Shown here piece after piece: positions 28,226 through 34,460 of a stretch of 64,000 nucleotides of DNA. How positions within the stretch are numbered: the stretch's first letter is position 1; the number at the start of each line of letters is the position of its first letter. The position numbers and the translations under genes were made by a program. Location of the stretch: assembly GCF_001292625.1 (NCBI RefSeq), contig NZ_LAJH01000009.1, positions 620,001 through 684,000 of the forward strand, written 5' to 3'. Below the pieces are notes generated by a model. That model did not search any database, was not told the DNA's origin, and worked only from the letters and a program-made list of their open reading frames with translations. This DNA comes from Shimia sp. SK013 (lineage in GTDB: Bacteria; Pseudomonadota; Alphaproteobacteria; Rhodobacterales; Rhodobacteraceae).

Positions 28226-29365
28226 TCACTTGCCCAGCAAACGAGCGTGTTCCTGCAAAGCATAGCGGTCTGTCATACCTGAAATATAATCCGAAACTTT
28301 GCGCGCCACCGCCGTCTGTGACGTGTTTGTGGCCAAATCCCCTTGCCAGCGTTCCGGCAACAATGTCGGCGTTTGCAAAAACAGCGGGAACAAATCGGTG
28401 ACCACCACTGTCACTTTCTCACGCATCTCGACAACAGATGGTGCGCGATACATGCGGGTGAAAAGAAATGCACGGATGACCTTCAGGTCTTGCCACAACG
28501 TGTCACTGAACCGGATCACCGGCGCACCGTACAATCGGATGTCTTCAACCGATTTCGCGCCCGACGCCTCCAAAAGCACGCTCGACGTGTCGATCACATC
28601 GCTGACCATCACGCCAAACACCCGCCGCAATGCCTCATGGCGACGCCGGATTGGTTCAAGACCTGGGTATTTCGCATCCACTTGCGCAAAGGCCGGGCCA
28701 ACAATCGGTAAATCGCAAATCGCGTCTTCGTCAAAAAGCCCCGCCCGCAACCCATCGTGCAGATCGTGATTGTTATAAGCAATGTCATCAGACAACGCCG
28801 CCACCTGCGCCTCGGCACTCGCGTGGGTGTGCAATTCCAAATCATGTTCGGCGTTATAATCTGCCAGCGCATACGGCAGATCTCCAACCACCGGACCGTT
28901 ATGTTTCGCAATACCTTCAAGGGCTTCCCAGGTGAGGTTCAACCCGTCAAACTCTGCATAATGCCGTTCCAAAGACGTCACGATCCGCACCGCCTGCGCG
29001 TTGTGATCAAACCCTCCATAGGGCGCCATCAGCGCATCCAGCGCGTCCTCTCCGGTGTGTCCGAACGGCGTGTGACCAAGGTCATGCGCCAACGCAACGC
29101 CTTCGGTCAGTTCCTGATTAAGCCCCAGTGCGCCCGCGATCGTGCGTGCTACTTGCGCCACCTCGATCGAATGCGTCAAACGGGTGCGGAAATAGTCGCC
29201 CTCGTGTTCGACGAACACTTGCGTCTTATGCTTCAACCGCCGAAAGGCGCTGGCATGAATAATCCGGTCCCGATCCCGCTGAAAGCTGGAGCGAAAACCA
29301 CTTTCCTCTTCCGCAAACCGCCGTCCCCGGGCGGTCATTGGATCCGAGGCATAGGGCGCGCGCAT
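28226..29365 (-). CDS. dGTPase-like HD phosphohydrolase
   Basis: A 379-residue member of the deoxyguanosinetriphosphate triphosphohydrolase-like family, acting on dNTPs. HD-domain metal ligands are H65 (RLTHSIEVA), H94-D95 (AHDLGH) and the later SDDIAYNNHD. It starts the leftward argS operon and is divergent from erpA. Confidence 0.93.
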   Translation of the reverse strand: MRAPYASDPMTARGRRFAEEESGFRSSFQRDRDRIIHASAFRRLKHKTQVFVEHEGDYFRTRLTHSIEVAQVARTIAGALGLNQELTEGVALAHDLGHTPFGHTGEDALDALMAPYGGFDHNAQAVRIVTSLERHYAEFDGLNLTWEALEGIAKHNGPVVGDLPYALADYNAEHDLELHTHASAEAQVAALSDDIAYNNHDLHDGLRAGLFDEDAICDLPIVGPAFAQVDAKYPGLEPIRRRHEALRRVFGVMVSDVIDTSSVLLEASGAKSVEDIRLYGAPVIRFSDTLWQDLKVIRAFLFTRMYRAPSVVEMREKVTVVVTDLFPLFLQTPTLLPERWQGDLATNTSQTAVARKVSDYISGMTDRYALQEHARLLGK

Positions 29366-29458
29366 GGCGATGGTCCTTGTAGCCTGTTACTGGCCTTTCT
29401 ATATTGCACTCACGCGCCGGTTTGAACCGGCCATTTGACTGACAACCGCAGGTGACCC

Positions 29459-29782
29459 ATGCAAATCCCACCCAAAGTGACCAATCGCGCCTTTGAACGC
29501 CTTGCCGAAATCGGAGCATCCGGTCAGGGTCAGGCGCTGCGCGTCGCCGTCGAAGGCGGCGGCTGCTCGGGATTTCAGTACGAAATCAAGCTCGACACCG
29601 CCAAAGACGACGATCTCGTGCTTGAAGGCGGTGGCGAAAAGGTTCTGGTGGACAGCGTGTCGCTGCCGTTCCTTGCGGACGCGGTGATCGATTTCACCGA
29701 AGAGCTGATCGGCGCGCGGTTTGTAATCAACAATCCTAACGCCACCAGCTCCTGCGGCTGCGGAACCAGTTTCTCTATGTAG
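29459..29782 (+). CDS. erpA: ErpA-type iron-sulfur insertion protein
   Basis: A-type carrier of 107 residues that passes Fe-S clusters to target enzymes. Cysteines C36 (GGGCSGF), C99 and C101 (SCGCG) are the three conserved ligands. Its end overlaps that of the opposed EamA gene by 8 bases. Confidence 0.92.
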   Translation: MQIPPKVTNRAFERLAEIGASGQGQALRVAVEGGGCSGFQYEIKLDTAKDDDLVLEGGGEKVLVDSVSLPFLADAVIDFTEELIGARFVINNPNATSSCGCGTSFSM

Positions 29783-30668
29783 GGGACTTGCTGACCGGTT
29801 CGGCACCCGGCTGCGGCATCATGCGCTGCAATACCAGCACTGCGCCCGCCGCTGTGACAACGGCCGCTCCGATATAGACGTGCATCCCCGGCACCTCGCC
29901 AAAAAACCGACCGCCCAACCAGACCATCCAGACAAACTGTAGGCTCATCAACAACGTGACCACATGAACCGGTAGCAGTCTCAGTGCGAGAACACAGAGC
30001 CACCGCGCCGCAAACAGTGCCACAGAGTAAGCCGCAACCAGCAACAGCTCCGCCGTGCCCATGGGACGCCAGACAAACGGCAAGGCCAACGCCATTACTG
30101 CGCCCATGGCGAGGTTTGGATAGAACACCTGCGCCAAACTGGCACGCTCGCGATTGGAAATGTAGCGCGCCAGGACAAGCGACAGTGAACCAGTGATTGC
30201 TGCACAAAGCGCCACTGCGTGCCCTGCACCAATGTTGTGCAAACCGTCAGGAAACAGGAAAAACACACCCAACGCTCCAAGCGCCAAGGCAAACCAGGTG
30301 CCAGGTTGCAAACGCTCTCCTAACATTGGTCCTGAAAGCGTCGCCGACATGATGGGCATCAGTCCGATAAACAGGAACACTTCCGCCATCGGCAACAACC
30401 GAAACGACAGAAAAAATGCAACCGATGCCACGATTCCCAAAGCACACCGAGCCAATGTCGGTCGCCATAGCCTTGTTCTTGGCACCGTGCCAGCGGGGCG
30501 CGTTACCAGCATACAAAGCCCCGCGACGGCGAGGCCGGAGATCGCGAATAGCTGGGGCGCTGTGTATCCACTGGCAATATGTTTGGTGATGGCGTCGGCA
30601 CAGGAAATCGCGCCGGTATACAGCACCACCAAAGCCACCCCGAGCAAAGCTTCTTTGCGCGGACTCAC
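29775..30668 (-). CDS. EamA/DMT-family transporter
   Basis: A 297-residue inner-membrane protein with about ten membrane segments in two EamA repeats (SCADAITKHI near the amino end is typical of the family). Members export amino acids, nucleobases and other metabolites. It starts at GTG 30668, which overlaps the stop of the gene before it (GTGA), so the two are translationally coupled. Substrate unknown; it could carry out a product of the upstream pair. Confidence 0.85.
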   Translation of the reverse strand: MSPRKEALLGVALVVLYTGAISCADAITKHIASGYTAPQLFAISGLAVAGLCMLVTRPAGTVPRTRLWRPTLARCALGIVASVAFFLSFRLLPMAEVFLFIGLMPIMSATLSGPMLGERLQPGTWFALALGALGVFFLFPDGLHNIGAGHAVALCAAITGSLSLVLARYISNRERASLAQVFYPNLAMGAVMALALPFVWRPMGTAELLLVAAYSVALFAARWLCVLALRLLPVHVVTLLMSLQFVWMVWLGGRFFGEVPGMHVYIGAAVVTAAGAVLVLQRMMPQPGAEPVSKSPT

Positions 30669-31747
30669 GATGCGACCCTCAGCAAAAGACTGACTCTTGA
30701 AAAATATTCAAAGAAGGTTTCAAAGCACGCGCTTGATGCCTCGGCCCGGGCCACTTGATCGCGCGCTTCTGGCGACAGATCCGCCCAAATCGCCGGCCGC
30801 ATCGTTGACCAGTCAGCCGTGCGTCGCTCGTGCATGCCATAAAGGCTTTCACTCAATTCCCGTAGCGGCGCAAATCCGGCTTGAGGGCTTTGAAAAACCG
30901 GCACAACACCCGGCGGCGGCGCTGCCGTAAACCCGTCAACGTTGCCTGCAATCATGCCGGCCCACTGACACATCAGGAATTCATGGTAATTGTCTGACGC
31001 CACAACCGACATGCCGGGATCAAAATCAAACCTGCCAGTGTGCCCATGCAGCCAAGCGAGCCAATCCTGTGGGGGCGCTTTACCACCAAATCGCATTGCC
31101 ACGCATATTTCTGAGAGCAAATCCGCGTTCTGCTCAACAAATGCCCAAAGCCCGACAAATTCCAAAGACGTCATCGCCTCAGGTGTCAGTTCTGGATCTC
31201 GCGTCCCGTAATCAGACAGGTAAAACACAGTATGTGTCAGTTCATAAGCGATCTTTTTGTTGGGCAACGCAAATTGTGCTGTGCGACTCATGAACGTCCG
31301 CGCGCGCATGTCCAGTCCGTCGTCAACCTTGCTGCAGTGCACCCCACGCCGCGCCATAAGCCGACGCGCCTCCATGCGTTGCAAGTCCGACAACTCCGCA
31401 AGCGCAAGGCCCTCTGTCTGGACCCAGCGCACCAGCTTCTCACTGGTATCGCCCTGCCCTCGCAGATCCTCGATGTCCAGGCAGATCGACAACAAAAACC
31501 GATAGTACTGTGGGAAGAATTCAATCCGCGTTTCGATGGTCTCGTAAAACTGATCGTAAAGCGCCAGCGTGTCCTTCGCGTCCTGACCTGTGGACTGCAA
31601 TACGTTCAGAAACTCCGCGTTTTCCTTTAGCCAAAACACATCGTTTTCGCCGCGCCGTTCACTGGCAAAAACCTGTGCCAGCCGTGCTGAGGTAGACGTC
31701 TCTAATATTTGCCGTTTTGGGACGGCCAGAGTGATGACGTTAGACAT
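30665..31747 (-). CDS. Unknown protein paired with the repeat peptide (DUF6902-like)
   Basis: A 360-residue, mostly helical protein with no signal peptide or membrane segment. I believe it matches an uncharacterised Rhodobacterales family (DUF6902), which I could not check. Notable polar motifs are ELTHTVFYLSDYG (169-181), WLHGHTGRF (232-240) and DNYHEF (252-257); their histidines (H172, H234, H236, H255) could bind metal or act in catalysis. The H-x3-Y-x4-G pattern recalls alpha/alpha-barrel enzymes of natural-product pathways, but this is a weak guess. Start at 31747 follows AGGGAGA. It lies 68 bases after the 86-residue repeat peptide and overlaps the EamA gene. Confidence 0.75.
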   Translation of the reverse strand: MSNVITLAVPKRQILETSTSARLAQVFASERRGENDVFWLKENAEFLNVLQSTGQDAKDTLALYDQFYETIETRIEFFPQYYRFLLSICLDIEDLRGQGDTSEKLVRWVQTEGLALAELSDLQRMEARRLMARRGVHCSKVDDGLDMRARTFMSRTAQFALPNKKIAYELTHTVFYLSDYGTRDPELTPEAMTSLEFVGLWAFVEQNADLLSEICVAMRFGGKAPPQDWLAWLHGHTGRFDFDPGMSVVASDNYHEFLMCQWAGMIAGNVDGFTAAPPPGVVPVFQSPQAGFAPLRELSESLYGMHERRTADWSTMRPAIWADLSPEARDQVARAEASSACFETFFEYFSRVSLLLRVAS

Positions 31748-31815
31748 GGTCTTTCTCCCTATATCCGCAGCCACTAGGGCCGCCCCTAAAGTGTTATCTG
31801 CCGGTCAAATCAGTT

Positions 31816-32076
31816 TCACAGACCCGACGAGAACATCTCGACGCCATCGCCGCCTACCAGACGCAGGCCCTCTTTCTGAGGTGCTAGCCCGCTGGAGAAC
31901 ATTTGGACGAGACCGCTGGAGAACAGAGCCGTGCCGTCGCCAGCAAACGCGTCAGATGCGCTGGCCTCCAGACCGGAGGAAAACAGGGAAGCACCGTCCC
32001 CTGAGAACATGTCGCAGGCTACGGAGTCGGTGGTTGGCATTTCGGTAGCAATTTCAGTGGATGTGTAAGCAAGCAA
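31816..32076 (-). CDS. Repeat peptide with four [L/M]FSSGL motifs
   Basis: An 86-residue peptide starting at TTG 32076, set by AAGGAGAG five bases upstream. No signal peptide. The hexapeptide [L/M]FSSGL occurs at residues 31-36, 51-56, 59-64 and 81-86, the last being the exact carboxyl end. GDG occurs at 26-28, 47-49 and 77-79, so the basic unit is roughly D-[M/A]-F-[S/A]-GDG-x2-LFSSGL. The repeats use different codons (TTT TCC TCC GGT, TTC TCC AGC GGT, TTC TCG TCG GGT), so the protein sequence rather than DNA is kept. One cysteine (C21). The layout, leader plus repeated short cores followed by an unknown protein and an exporter-like gene, resembles a ribosomally made, modified peptide precursor. 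It could instead be a small structural repeat protein. Confidence 0.75.
   Translation of the reverse strand: MLAYTSTEIATEMPTTDSVACDMFSGDGASLFSSGLEASASDAFAGDGTALFSSGLVQMFSSGLAPQKEGLRLVGGDGVEMFSSGL
31819..31986 (-). repeat. Four coding repeats of [L/M]FSSGL
   Basis: Hexapeptide-coding copies at 31819-31836, 31885-31902, 31909-31926 and 31969-31986. The two middle copies share TTCTCCAGCGG and may be a recent duplication; the outer two differ at synonymous positions. Confidence 0.85.
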
Positions 32077-32495
32077 TGGATCTCTCCTTGATGAGTTGTA
32101 GTGGGTCAAGACTACACGCAAAGCGTGTTTCGTGAAGTCCAAGTTCCCCTTATAAGTGTTTATCAGCACTCAATTTCAGCCGCGAGTTGCGACCCAAATC
32201 TGGTAAGCAGCTGAACTTACCAAACTTTCCCTTACGTTAATTTCTCCAAATTTTTTCCACTTTCCTGCCACATATTTGCCTCATTTCAGCGAAGTGTCTC
32301 GGCAAGCACCCCGAATCAGCTTGATCCAAGGACCCCGTCATCGACCAACGTTTTGCACGCAGCAGAGCCGGTTTCATGGCTCTCTGGTCAGACTGTGCCA
32401 ACCTTCTGGAACCCAGGATTTGGCGGCCACTTCGGGTTGCTCAGACCGGGTAAACCGGCCTAAAGTGACGCACCCAAAACCACAGGCAGGCCGAC
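32077..32495. other. AT-rich regulatory gap between repeat peptide and xth
   Basis: No credible gene. The left part (32090-32290) is clearly richer in A and T than its surroundings and holds a palindrome at 32201-32222 and a possible leftward -10 TATAAG (32150-32155). The right part leads to xth. The composition is consistent with an inserted cassette. Confidence 0.5.
32201..32222. promoter_or_regulatory. Palindrome upstream of the repeat peptide
   Basis: TGGTAAG (32201-32207), eight bases, CTTACCA (32216-32222), perfect in both arms, about 125 bases upstream of the TTG start. Likely operator for a dimeric regulator that I cannot identify. Confidence 0.45.
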
Positions 32496-33275
32496 ATGAA
32501 AATCGCGAGTTTCAACATCAATGGCGTTAAGGCGCGGATCGAAACGTTGCCGCGCTGGCTGGACGAAGCACAACCCGATGTTGCGCTGCTACAGGAAATC
32601 AAATCGGTCGATGAAAACTTCCCGCGCGAGATATTTGAAGACCGCGGCTACACCGTCGAAACCCACGGCCAGAAAAGTTTCAATGGCGTGGCGATTTTGT
32701 CCAAACTACCGCTCGAGGATGTGACTCGCGGCCTGCCAGGCGACGCAACAGATGAACAGGCCCGCTACATTGAGGCGACGGTCATGGGCGAAACGCCCAT
32801 TCGGGTGTGCGGCCTCTATTTGCCAAATGGCAACCCGACACCGGGACCAAAGTACGACTACAAATTGGCGTGGATGAAACGCCTTGAGGCCCGCGCCATT
32901 GAACTTTTGACCACAGAAGAACCCTTCCTGATGGCGGGCGATTACAACGTGATTCCACAGGATGAGGACGCCAAACGCCCCGACGTCTGGCAAGAAGACG
33001 CGCTTGCTCTGCCGCATAGCCGCGCGGCGTACCGACGCCTGTTGAACCTTGGCCTGACCGAGGCCTTTCGCGCCCGTAACGCGGCCGCGGGCCAATTCAC
33101 ATTTTGGGATTATCAGGCTGGCGCATGGAACAAGGATGATGGCATCCGCATCGATCACTTCCTGCTCAGCCCTCAATGCGCTGATCTTTTGCAGAATGTG
33201 CAGATCGACAAAGAAGAACGTGGCCGCTCAAAACCCTCTGACCATGTCCCCATCTGGATTGATCTGGCCGCTTAG
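32496..33275 (+). CDS. xth: Exodeoxyribonuclease III
   Basis: DNA repair enzyme (AP endonuclease, 3' exonuclease, 3' phosphatase). The 259-residue protein has LLQEIKS (metal glutamate), GDYNVIP (aspartate and asparagine) and the catalytic end SDHVPIW. The start at 32496 gives MKIASFNINGVKAR, the family amino end. Confidence 0.95.
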   Translation: MKIASFNINGVKARIETLPRWLDEAQPDVALLQEIKSVDENFPREIFEDRGYTVETHGQKSFNGVAILSKLPLEDVTRGLPGDATDEQARYIEATVMGETPIRVCGLYLPNGNPTPGPKYDYKLAWMKRLEARAIELLTTEEPFLMAGDYNVIPQDEDAKRPDVWQEDALALPHSRAAYRRLLNLGLTEAFRARNAAAGQFTFWDYQAGAWNKDDGIRIDHFLLSPQCADLLQNVQIDKEERGRSKPSDHVPIWIDLAA

Positions 33276-33284
33276 CCCTTTGAT

Positions 33285-34460
33285 CTAGCTGTCTTTTGTC
33301 ACGTCGTACCGATAGATCCAGTCAAAATGGCCCATCATCGTTTTGGGTGCCAGCGTCGACGCAATCGTCAGCCCAAGATGCGCCGCTATGCGAACTGGTG
33401 GCGCGCTCAGGTGGTAACGGCCCGCGTTTTTGGATGCAGTATCGACCACCCGCCGAACCCGCGCCTGCCGCCGTGTCTGGTATGCGGCCAGGCCGGTCTC
33501 TATGTTGTCAGCTTTGGCAAGAGCATCGCCCAAAACCCACGCGTCCTCCATCGCCATGACGGCACCTTGTGCCATAAATGGCAACGTCGGATGCGCCGCA
33601 TCGCCAAGCAACGCCGTGTGCCCGTTGTGCCAGATCGGCGCCACTGGATGACGGAACAACCCCCACTTTCGAACACTCTCGACATTTGCCAGTAACGCCT
33701 TGGTTTCGCCTTCAAAATCCGAAAAGCAGCCACGCAGATTTTCCGGATCATCCGCGATATGCCAGCCTTCTTCGTGCCAGCCCGACCGCTCCTGCACCGC
33801 CACGATGTTGACCATCTCACCGCCGCGCAGGGGATAGCTCACAACGTGACGGCGCGGTCCCATATGCACTTTGGCCACCGGACCGTGCCCTACTGTGTTC
33901 GGCACCGTCGCGCGCCAGGCCACCTGCCGCGTGAAAAACGGCGCGACCGTGCCGTTCAACACAGCCCGCAGCTTGGAGTGCAGCCCGTCCGCACCAATTA
34001 CCAAATCAGCAGCGATTTCCTGTCCATGCGCCAGCACAACGCGCGGCGTCTCCCCTGGCCGCACGGTTTCGACTTTCTGCAACAGCCGAACTTTCACGCC
34101 AGCTGCGCGCACAGCTTCGGCCAAAATGTCAATTAAATCAGATCGATGGATGAAATAATACGGCGCTTCATCGCCAAGCGCGCCCAGATTAAGCCGCGAC
34201 ACCAGCCTCCCACGGGCATAGTCGCGCAATTCTACCGCTTGCCCGCGCACCGCGCGCGTTTGCAACGCCGCCTCAAGTCCCAAAGTGCGCAGAACGGCCA
34301 TGCCATTAGGCGAAACCTGCAATCCGGCACCAACCTCGGTGATCGCGTTTGCCTGCTCCAACACGGTGACATTCGCGCCGCGTTCCCGCAGCACCAACGC
34401 GGCTGTCAAACCGCCAATGCCAGCGCCAATCACGCTGATTTTGAGTCCGTTCAGATCCAT
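33285..34460 (-). CDS. FAD-dependent monooxygenase (salicylate-hydroxylase-like)
   Basis: A 391-residue group A flavoprotein monooxygenase. Motifs: VIGAGIGGLTAALVLRERG (FAD dinucleotide fold at the amino end), DLVIGADGLHSKLR (the DG motif), and GDAAHPTLPFMAQGA (second FAD motif). It should use NAD(P)H to hydroxylate an aromatic substrate; no pathway genes are adjacent to show which. Convergent with xth, and it has no visible cluster partner. Confidence 0.87.
   Translation of the reverse strand: MDLNGLKISVIGAGIGGLTAALVLRERGANVTVLEQANAITEVGAGLQVSPNGMAVLRTLGLEAALQTRAVRGQAVELRDYARGRLVSRLNLGALGDEAPYYFIHRSDLIDILAEAVRAAGVKVRLLQKVETVRPGETPRVVLAHGQEIAADLVIGADGLHSKLRAVLNGTVAPFFTRQVAWRATVPNTVGHGPVAKVHMGPRRHVVSYPLRGGEMVNIVAVQERSGWHEEGWHIADDPENLRGCFSDFEGETKALLANVESVRKWGLFRHPVAPIWHNGHTALLGDAAHPTLPFMAQGAVMAMEDAWVLGDALAKADNIETGLAAYQTRRQARVRRVVDTASKNAGRYHLSAPPVRIAAHLGLTIASTLAPKTMMGHFDWIYRYDVTKDS

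Follow-up and report, generated by a model that had tools for sequence, protein, structure and literature searches.

A repeat-peptide gene paired with a DUF6902 enzyme gene in Shimia and other Rhodobacteraceae: a candidate multi-core peptide-modification pathway

We analysed a 64,000-nucleotide stretch of the genome of Shimia sp. SK013 (contig NZ_LAJH01000009.1, positions 620,001 to 684,000; hereafter the window), which contains a cassette of three genes on its minus strand: a gene for a short repeat peptide, a gene for a 360-residue protein and a gene for an EamA-type transporter. The peptide gene (31816..32076) encodes 86 residues and starts with TTG, which aligns with the ATG starts of the related loci L009 and L077. 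It is preceded by a Shine-Dalgarno-like AAGGAG (32084..32089, minus strand), found by direct reading and the same in L008, the nearest relative. The peptide carries four copies of the pentamer FSSGL, which we call cores, all encoded on the minus strand: copy 1 at residues 32-36 (31969..31983), copy 2 at residues 52-56 (31909..31923), copy 3 at residues 60-64, followed by AP (31885..31899), and copy 4 at residues 82-86 (31819..31833), which forms the natural C-terminus, the stop codon following directly. The initial annotation had described four [L/M]FSSGL hexamers, the last at the C-terminal end, with GDG spacers, and this is indeed what the 86-codon open reading frame (ORF) contains; the hexamers are LFSSGL, LFSSGL, MFSSGL and MFSSGL, in that order, and there are three GDG spacers. 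The gene for the 360-residue protein, a putative core-modifying enzyme, follows at 30665..31747 (minus strand), and the transporter gene (29775..30668, minus strand) overlaps it by four bases, as noted initially. The transporter scores 49 bits against Pfam EamA, and its matches to amino-acid exporter models are weak and far under their cut-offs.

The 360-residue protein had been taken for an unknown one; the databases place it in described families. It matches Pfam DUF6902 (PF21843) with 463.3 bits (cut-off 27) over residues 1-351, covering positions 1-350 of the 351 of the model, and DUF6895 (PF21836) with 150.7 bits (cut-off 23.8) over residues 12-269. The names of these families indicate neither a function nor a peptide partner. 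For the window peptide no match was accepted in Pfam or NCBIfam, and those of its relatives that were tried gave matches below the cut-offs, except for a CRAM_rpt match on one 159-residue relative (20.4 bits, cut-off 19.8), which we took as a low-complexity match. A protein search with the peptide returned ten rows: the peptide itself, four close homologues (60-86% identity) and five weaker matches (expectation values, E, from 0.002 to 7). Within its own genome, DUF6902 has one match, and the peptide search found the window copy and one unconvincing match (E 0.55).

The initial annotation placed the peptide and the 360-residue protein in one cassette and proposed a test of their co-occurrence, which their distribution bears out. 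DUF6902 is present in 82 of the 295 sampled genomes of the family Rhodobacteraceae and in five of the 385 genomes of the class sample, four of the latter above the cut-off. A peptide profile of two repeat units, built from 26 rows, gives a match at E ≤ 0.01 in 78 of the 295. Both genes are found in 76 genomes, DUF6902 alone in six, the peptide alone in two and neither in 211 (Fisher p ~1.5e-60). Direct reading showed that three of the six DUF6902-only genomes (G481, G645 and G664) carry a diverged repeat peptide upstream (the cores being MMCCS, MMSCS and LSPSC); the gene of G521 is a fragment cut by the end of a contig, and G423 and G669 are without the peptide. In the two genomes matched by the profile only, G435 and G593, the matches are weak (E ~0.005) and may be due to chance or to missing data. 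A search of plasmids with DUF6902 at E 1e-5 gave no match.

We then collected 84 loci, namely that of the window, L008-L010 and those of all other positive genomes except G521 (80 of 81). Choosing for each locus the upstream ORF that scored best for repeats, without a shuffled control, we found a repeat peptide ahead of DUF6902 in 82 of them. The peptide stop codon and DUF6902 are separated by 30-150 nt in 76 of the 81 loci measured; the whole range is 16-342 nt. In L107, three FTSWSGP units are followed by an assembly gap. In L115, two distinct repeat-peptide ORFs precede one DUF6902 gene (from ~5398 of the oriented locus), one with LFTSGS/LFTSRS and the other with LFGSSC cores.

A typical repeat unit reads G[D/E]-x4-F-x-[S/T/C]-x-x-[A/G]P. 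In the 73 genes that have three or more copies, the copies within a gene are identical at core residues 2-5 with frequencies of 0.98-1.00, at the aromatic residue with 0.90, at the glycine at -6 with 0.95 and at the outer spacers with ~0.3; cores were picked by pattern and copies were kept if at least three of five residues fit the commonest core of the gene, which inflates these values somewhat. Six loci fall outside the core pattern (L072, L074, L076, L115, L116 and L117). Given the same residue, the codons are identical in 0.45-0.55 of cases at core residues 2-5, in 0.74 at the aromatic residue and in 0.43-0.63 at the flanks. Since residues 2-5 are constant within a gene and their codons vary, comparison of the sequences indicates that selection acts on the peptide, as the initial annotation had argued from the window. 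There, the third core residue is encoded by TCC, AGC, AGC and TCG in copies 1-4, and the cores differ from those of L008 by seven synonymous and no non-synonymous changes. Over the whole peptide the non-synonymous and synonymous distances to L008 (dN and dS) are 0.071 and 0.298, which indicates purifying selection, and for DUF6902 they are 0.073 and 0.829. The codon identity of 0.45-0.55 rules out that the repeats are alike solely through recent DNA duplication; recent near-identical copies are plainly present too in some genes, for example in L082 and L057.

Between genes the cores are diverse. The number of copies per precursor varies from 2 to 20, a variation that the initial annotation had proposed to look for, and 34 different core pentamers occur among 75 genes, with identical cores in 6.7% of gene pairs; examples are FSSGS, FTSGS, FTSWS, FVSWS, FTCGL, FITSC and FTTSM. 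Mixed cores inside one precursor were seen in few cases (L053, L065, L066 and L067). Within Shimia, the window, L008 and L077 have four FSSGL cores each, against four FSSGM in L009. On the enzyme tree, core classes are clustered and require 28 changes against 47.1 in shuffles (as low in 0 of 200), with nine class labels that were assigned by hand. The precursor ends exactly at core residue 5 in 49 of 79 cases, and in 0 of 16 among the W-type precursors, and a proline is present at +2 after the core in 396 of the 479 copies that have following sequence. These two features suggest that the released core would have a common C-terminal end. The N-terminal part of the relatives' precursors, about 20-30 residues, often opens with M[T/S/N]A[L/Q]xK and may act as a leader.

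The residues common to DUF6902 and DUF6895 are Y168, T171, H172, D209, E213, Y254 and H255. Four of these (H172, D209, E213 and H255) are retained in all 81 enzymes that have a peptide. Both peptide-less enzymes, L073 and L118, are without H172 and D209, their frames still being open (Fisher p 0.0003, for residues chosen after looking), and these two genes have perhaps been repurposed. The predicted structure of DUF6902 is almost wholly helical (predicted local distance difference test score, pLDDT, 92.9), and the DUF6895 model appears to resemble sugar 2-epimerases (cellobiose, glucose and N-acylglucosamine), which have a helical-toroid fold, along its whole length.

DUF6895 genes are found in other groups as well. 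In the phylum sample (398 genomes), 13 genomes gave a match, 11 of them above the cut-off, and five of the 13 had already been counted among the DUF6902 genomes. Seven loci were read (the new L134-L139 and L140), leaving out G738 and G748, which are below the cut-off. Outside the family (L134, L135, L136 and L140), one or two small ORFs lie directly upstream; their start is leader-like and their end aromatic (VGPWFVL, for example). L137 and L138, which are within the family and above the DUF6902 cut-off, have LSTSSF repeats, and L139 has a short frame with no clear peptide. In addition, seven plasmid records were read, and Pfam confirmed DUF6895 in all seven. A small annotated ORF directly precedes DUF6895 on the plasmids of Streptomyces sp. 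NBC_01243, Pseudalkalibacillus, Kitasatospora and Streptomyces sp. NBC_00857, and a small ORF lies just upstream on the unannotated plasmid of Gemmatirosa. The plasmids of S. fungicidicus and S. chartreusis (L145 and L146) carry two DUF6895 copies in tandem, preceded by a small ORF together with one further gene; the first S. chartreusis copy was judged by eye. The first parts of nine DUF6895-associated ORFs align loosely, with no invariant column, and the distant DUF6895 proteins retain the residues listed above where the sequence reaches (plasmid ones by eye). The DUF6902/DUF6895 superfamily thus appears to go mostly with small ORFs in the loci read. Two of these ORFs (L135:6937-7368 and L136:5772-6185) are two-unit duplicates of leader and core, and a papain-like cysteine peptidase (Peptidase_C70; L134:4271-4906), possibly a processing peptidase, lies near two DUF6895-associated peptides.

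The neighbours of the cassette in the window were read as ORFs, and among the genes that we take them to resemble are dgt, erpA and xth; we also followed seven window genes in the relatives. In the 84 fetched stretches, which extend about 6 kb to each side of the locus and are in some cases cut by contig ends, xth was matched in 78 and erpA in 73. Ten genomes without DUF6902 had a fetched erpA locus (of 30 loci), with xth within reach in seven, and we found no remnant of EamA or DUF6902 within ~1.5 kb in these ten. Judging from this gene order, the xth-erpA site is thus an old syntenic one at which the cassette is present or absent; what had been described as an interruption of the erpA-xth region is the usual place of the cassette in relatives. 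The transporter, initially counted as a member of the cassette, is indeed present in the window, and an EamA match follows DUF6902 in 64 of the 84 loci, which makes it an optional part across the loci compared.

Taken together, these data are best explained by a multi-core peptide-modification pathway of the type that makes ribosomally synthesised and post-translationally modified peptides (RiPPs), to which we assign a probability of about 0.6. A small precursor gene adjoins a dedicated enzyme gene and is inherited together with it (82 of the 84 loci; 76 genomes with both against eight with one of them), and the precursor combines an N-terminal part, for which a leader role is proposed, with a repeated, near-invariant core. 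The RiPP-like shape noted initially is supported by this co-occurrence, by the purifying selection on the peptide and by the position of DUF6895 genes elsewhere after small ORFs; that the peptide is modified, we infer. In the proposed pathway, DUF6902 would bind the precursor through the leader or the spacers and modify each F-x-S-x-x core. A peptidase, probably encoded outside the cassette, would then free multiple copies of a single short product with core residue 5 at its C-terminus, and the EamA protein, where present, would export this product. That DUF6902 acts catalytically on the peptide is the step that we regard as probable; for cleavage and export we consider the chances to be even.

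As for the chemistry, epimerisation at C-alpha using H172/H255 and D209/E213 is the leading candidate, albeit a tentative one that falls somewhat short of an even chance. It is put forward because of a DUF6895 epimerase title and because the two histidines and two acidic partners recall a known two-base logic. In the reference list of a 2026 review (PMC13352647), a DUF6895 epimerase of lasso peptides is cited by title (Shi et al. 2026, ACS Catal). As far as this title tells, the likeness consists of the same Pfam family that is matched by the enzyme here and of a ribosomal peptide partner, and the difference lies in the 2-20 short repeated cores of the precursors described here. We noticed no lasso gene near the cassette, where none was searched for by profile. 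According to PMC10406935, MslH, the calcineurin-like epimerase of the lasso peptide MS-271, uses two His/Asp dyads. The proposed two-base logic, with two histidines and acidic partners, would be alike; unlike MslH, the DUF6902 model is almost wholly helical and the protein lacks a metallophosphatase match in Pfam (E up to 1). Our estimate for epimerisation was raised slightly because the DUF6895 model appears to resemble sugar 2-epimerases over its whole length.

Several observations weigh against a RiPP-type pathway or parts of it. The peptide profile missed three known peptides, and it may also miss diverged ones in genomes without DUF6902, because it was built from peptides beside DUF6902. 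The peptide-less enzyme L118 has diverged everywhere (26% identity), so that the argument from joint loss of peptide and residues depends mainly on L073. Most cores are internal and none of the 16 W-type precursors ends at the core, whereas the target of MslH is the C-terminal residue. No peptidase was recognised beside the cassette, where the neighbours were read as ORFs and no peptidase scan was run. At least 15 of the 84 loci have erpA directly after DUF6902 and no EamA match, and EamA-family proteins usually move small metabolites. Finally, the UniRef name of one DUF6902 protein is 'Iron-containing redox enzyme', which would fit another chemistry.

Indeed, DUF6902 might modify the cores in another way, by metal-dependent oxidation or by a reaction on Ser, Thr or Cys, with the two histidines and two acidic residues binding a metal. 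We consider this rather unlikely, as no Ser/Thr/Cys position is common to all cores (YIAGL of L117 has none of the three) and a DUF6895 relative is, by its title, an epimerase. The role of the peptide could also be a different one. In pearlin-type pathways a small amino-acid-like metabolite is built on a scaffold peptide, and the peptide described here would by analogy be a disposable scaffold whose modified residues are cut off and exported by EamA. The frequency of the EamA match after DUF6902 and the weak resemblance of the window transporter to amino-acid exporters would fit, but EamA is often absent, and the four to five strictly constant residues per gene exceed what a single-residue product would need; a scaffold is therefore improbable in our view. 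No less improbable is an unmodified repeat peptide with a structural, adhesive or regulatory role, which DUF6902 would serve as binding partner or chaperone. Such a role agrees with the lack of a known product and with copy numbers of 2 to 20, as in structural repeats, yet it leaves unexplained why polar residues common to DUF6902 and DUF6895 are lost where the peptide is lost and why cores switch in concert between genomes; moreover, the small ORFs adjoining the DUF6895 kin are mostly not repeats of the FSSGL-like kind.

Several cores on one precursor are found in microviridins and other multi-core RiPPs, according to PMC5934393. The precursors described here likewise have several cores, which are pentamers, and their partner is DUF6902. 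The partner enzyme of microviridins is an ATP-grasp cyclase, unlike DUF6902. Our searches of open-access papers turned up no description of these peptides, of an association between them and DUF6902, or of the promoter sites described below, and the above 2026 review was the sole paper found to name DUF6902 or DUF6895. The enzyme itself belongs to established Pfam families, and the overall design resembles that of RiPPs. If a RiPP-type pathway is correct, two families that Pfam lists as domains of unknown function would gain a testable role in peptide modification, together with candidate substrates in several phyla, and the 34 core pentamers with their matched enzymes would provide a natural test set for specificity. 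The system is also a case in which all repeats in a gene change together despite differing codons.

The region upstream of the peptide gene contains a further recurrent feature, sites that resemble TTATCCACA, which we take to be the DnaA-box consensus. In the window, a degenerate site, AGTGGAAAA (7/9), lies at -185 (32253..32261, minus strand), where many relatives have TGTGGATAA; a second site, at -111, is not recognisable there (5/9). Counts were made in 67 of the 84 loci, after dropping seven that were peptide-less or affected by a contig edge or gap, six with doubtful starts, three where the script failed to locate a start, and L072, which contains Ns. Allowing up to one mismatch, a TTATCCACA-like site is present in 46 of these 67 upstream regions, and an exact one in 36, against expectations of 4.0 and 0.12 from mononucleotide shuffles; a good site is missing in 21. 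The rest of the loci (865 kb) contains 63 and 2 such sites, respectively. Relative to the start codon, the upstream sites concentrate around -187 and -111, and most have one orientation. Of 68 regions, 22 contain a site at each of these two positions (≥7/9), with a spacing of 76 bp in 17, 75 bp in three and 77 bp in two. The exact pair was found in 12 of 238 genomes, once in each and always beside the DUF6902 coordinates, and a reversed-pattern control gave one. We also considered whether the sites belong to the divergent xth gene. This was ruled out, as the distance of the second site to the peptide start has a standard deviation of 3.7 bp and that to xth one of 42 bp (40 loci); the sites are also absent from ten cassette-less loci, except for one match with one mismatch.

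If these sites bind DnaA, they would link replication initiation to peptide production. The most far-reaching version of our proposal is that Rhodobacteraceae make a new kind of multi-copy recognition peptide, with up to ~20 identical D-residue peptides per precursor, a two-histidine helical-toroid epimerase, switching cores and, in many species, an operon wired to the replication initiator DnaA by paired boxes at a distance of 76 bp. We regard this full combination as unlikely. If it were true, the switching of the core word in all copies between close relatives would fit a species-specific signal or an arms race.

The upstream stretch was also described initially as AT-rich and as containing a palindrome, and both descriptions hold. 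The GC content is 0.45 in 32000-32299 and 0.50 in the next interval, and lies between 0.51 and 0.61 elsewhere in 29000-33499. The palindrome, acacgc-aaa-gcgtgt (32114..32128), was read by eye; it is identical in L008 and partly conserved in L009 and L077. An inverted-repeat search of 32077-32495 returned four other, imperfect or distant pairs, the 6-base arms of the palindrome being too short for detection. Rfam at gathering scores gave no match in 31700-32520, and a scan for sigma-70-type promoters found none in 29400-32600. Many relatives have a second conserved stretch at approximately -60 to -30, around TTTTGCAA...GTGCAAGCGTGAAGGGGC, as judged by eye.

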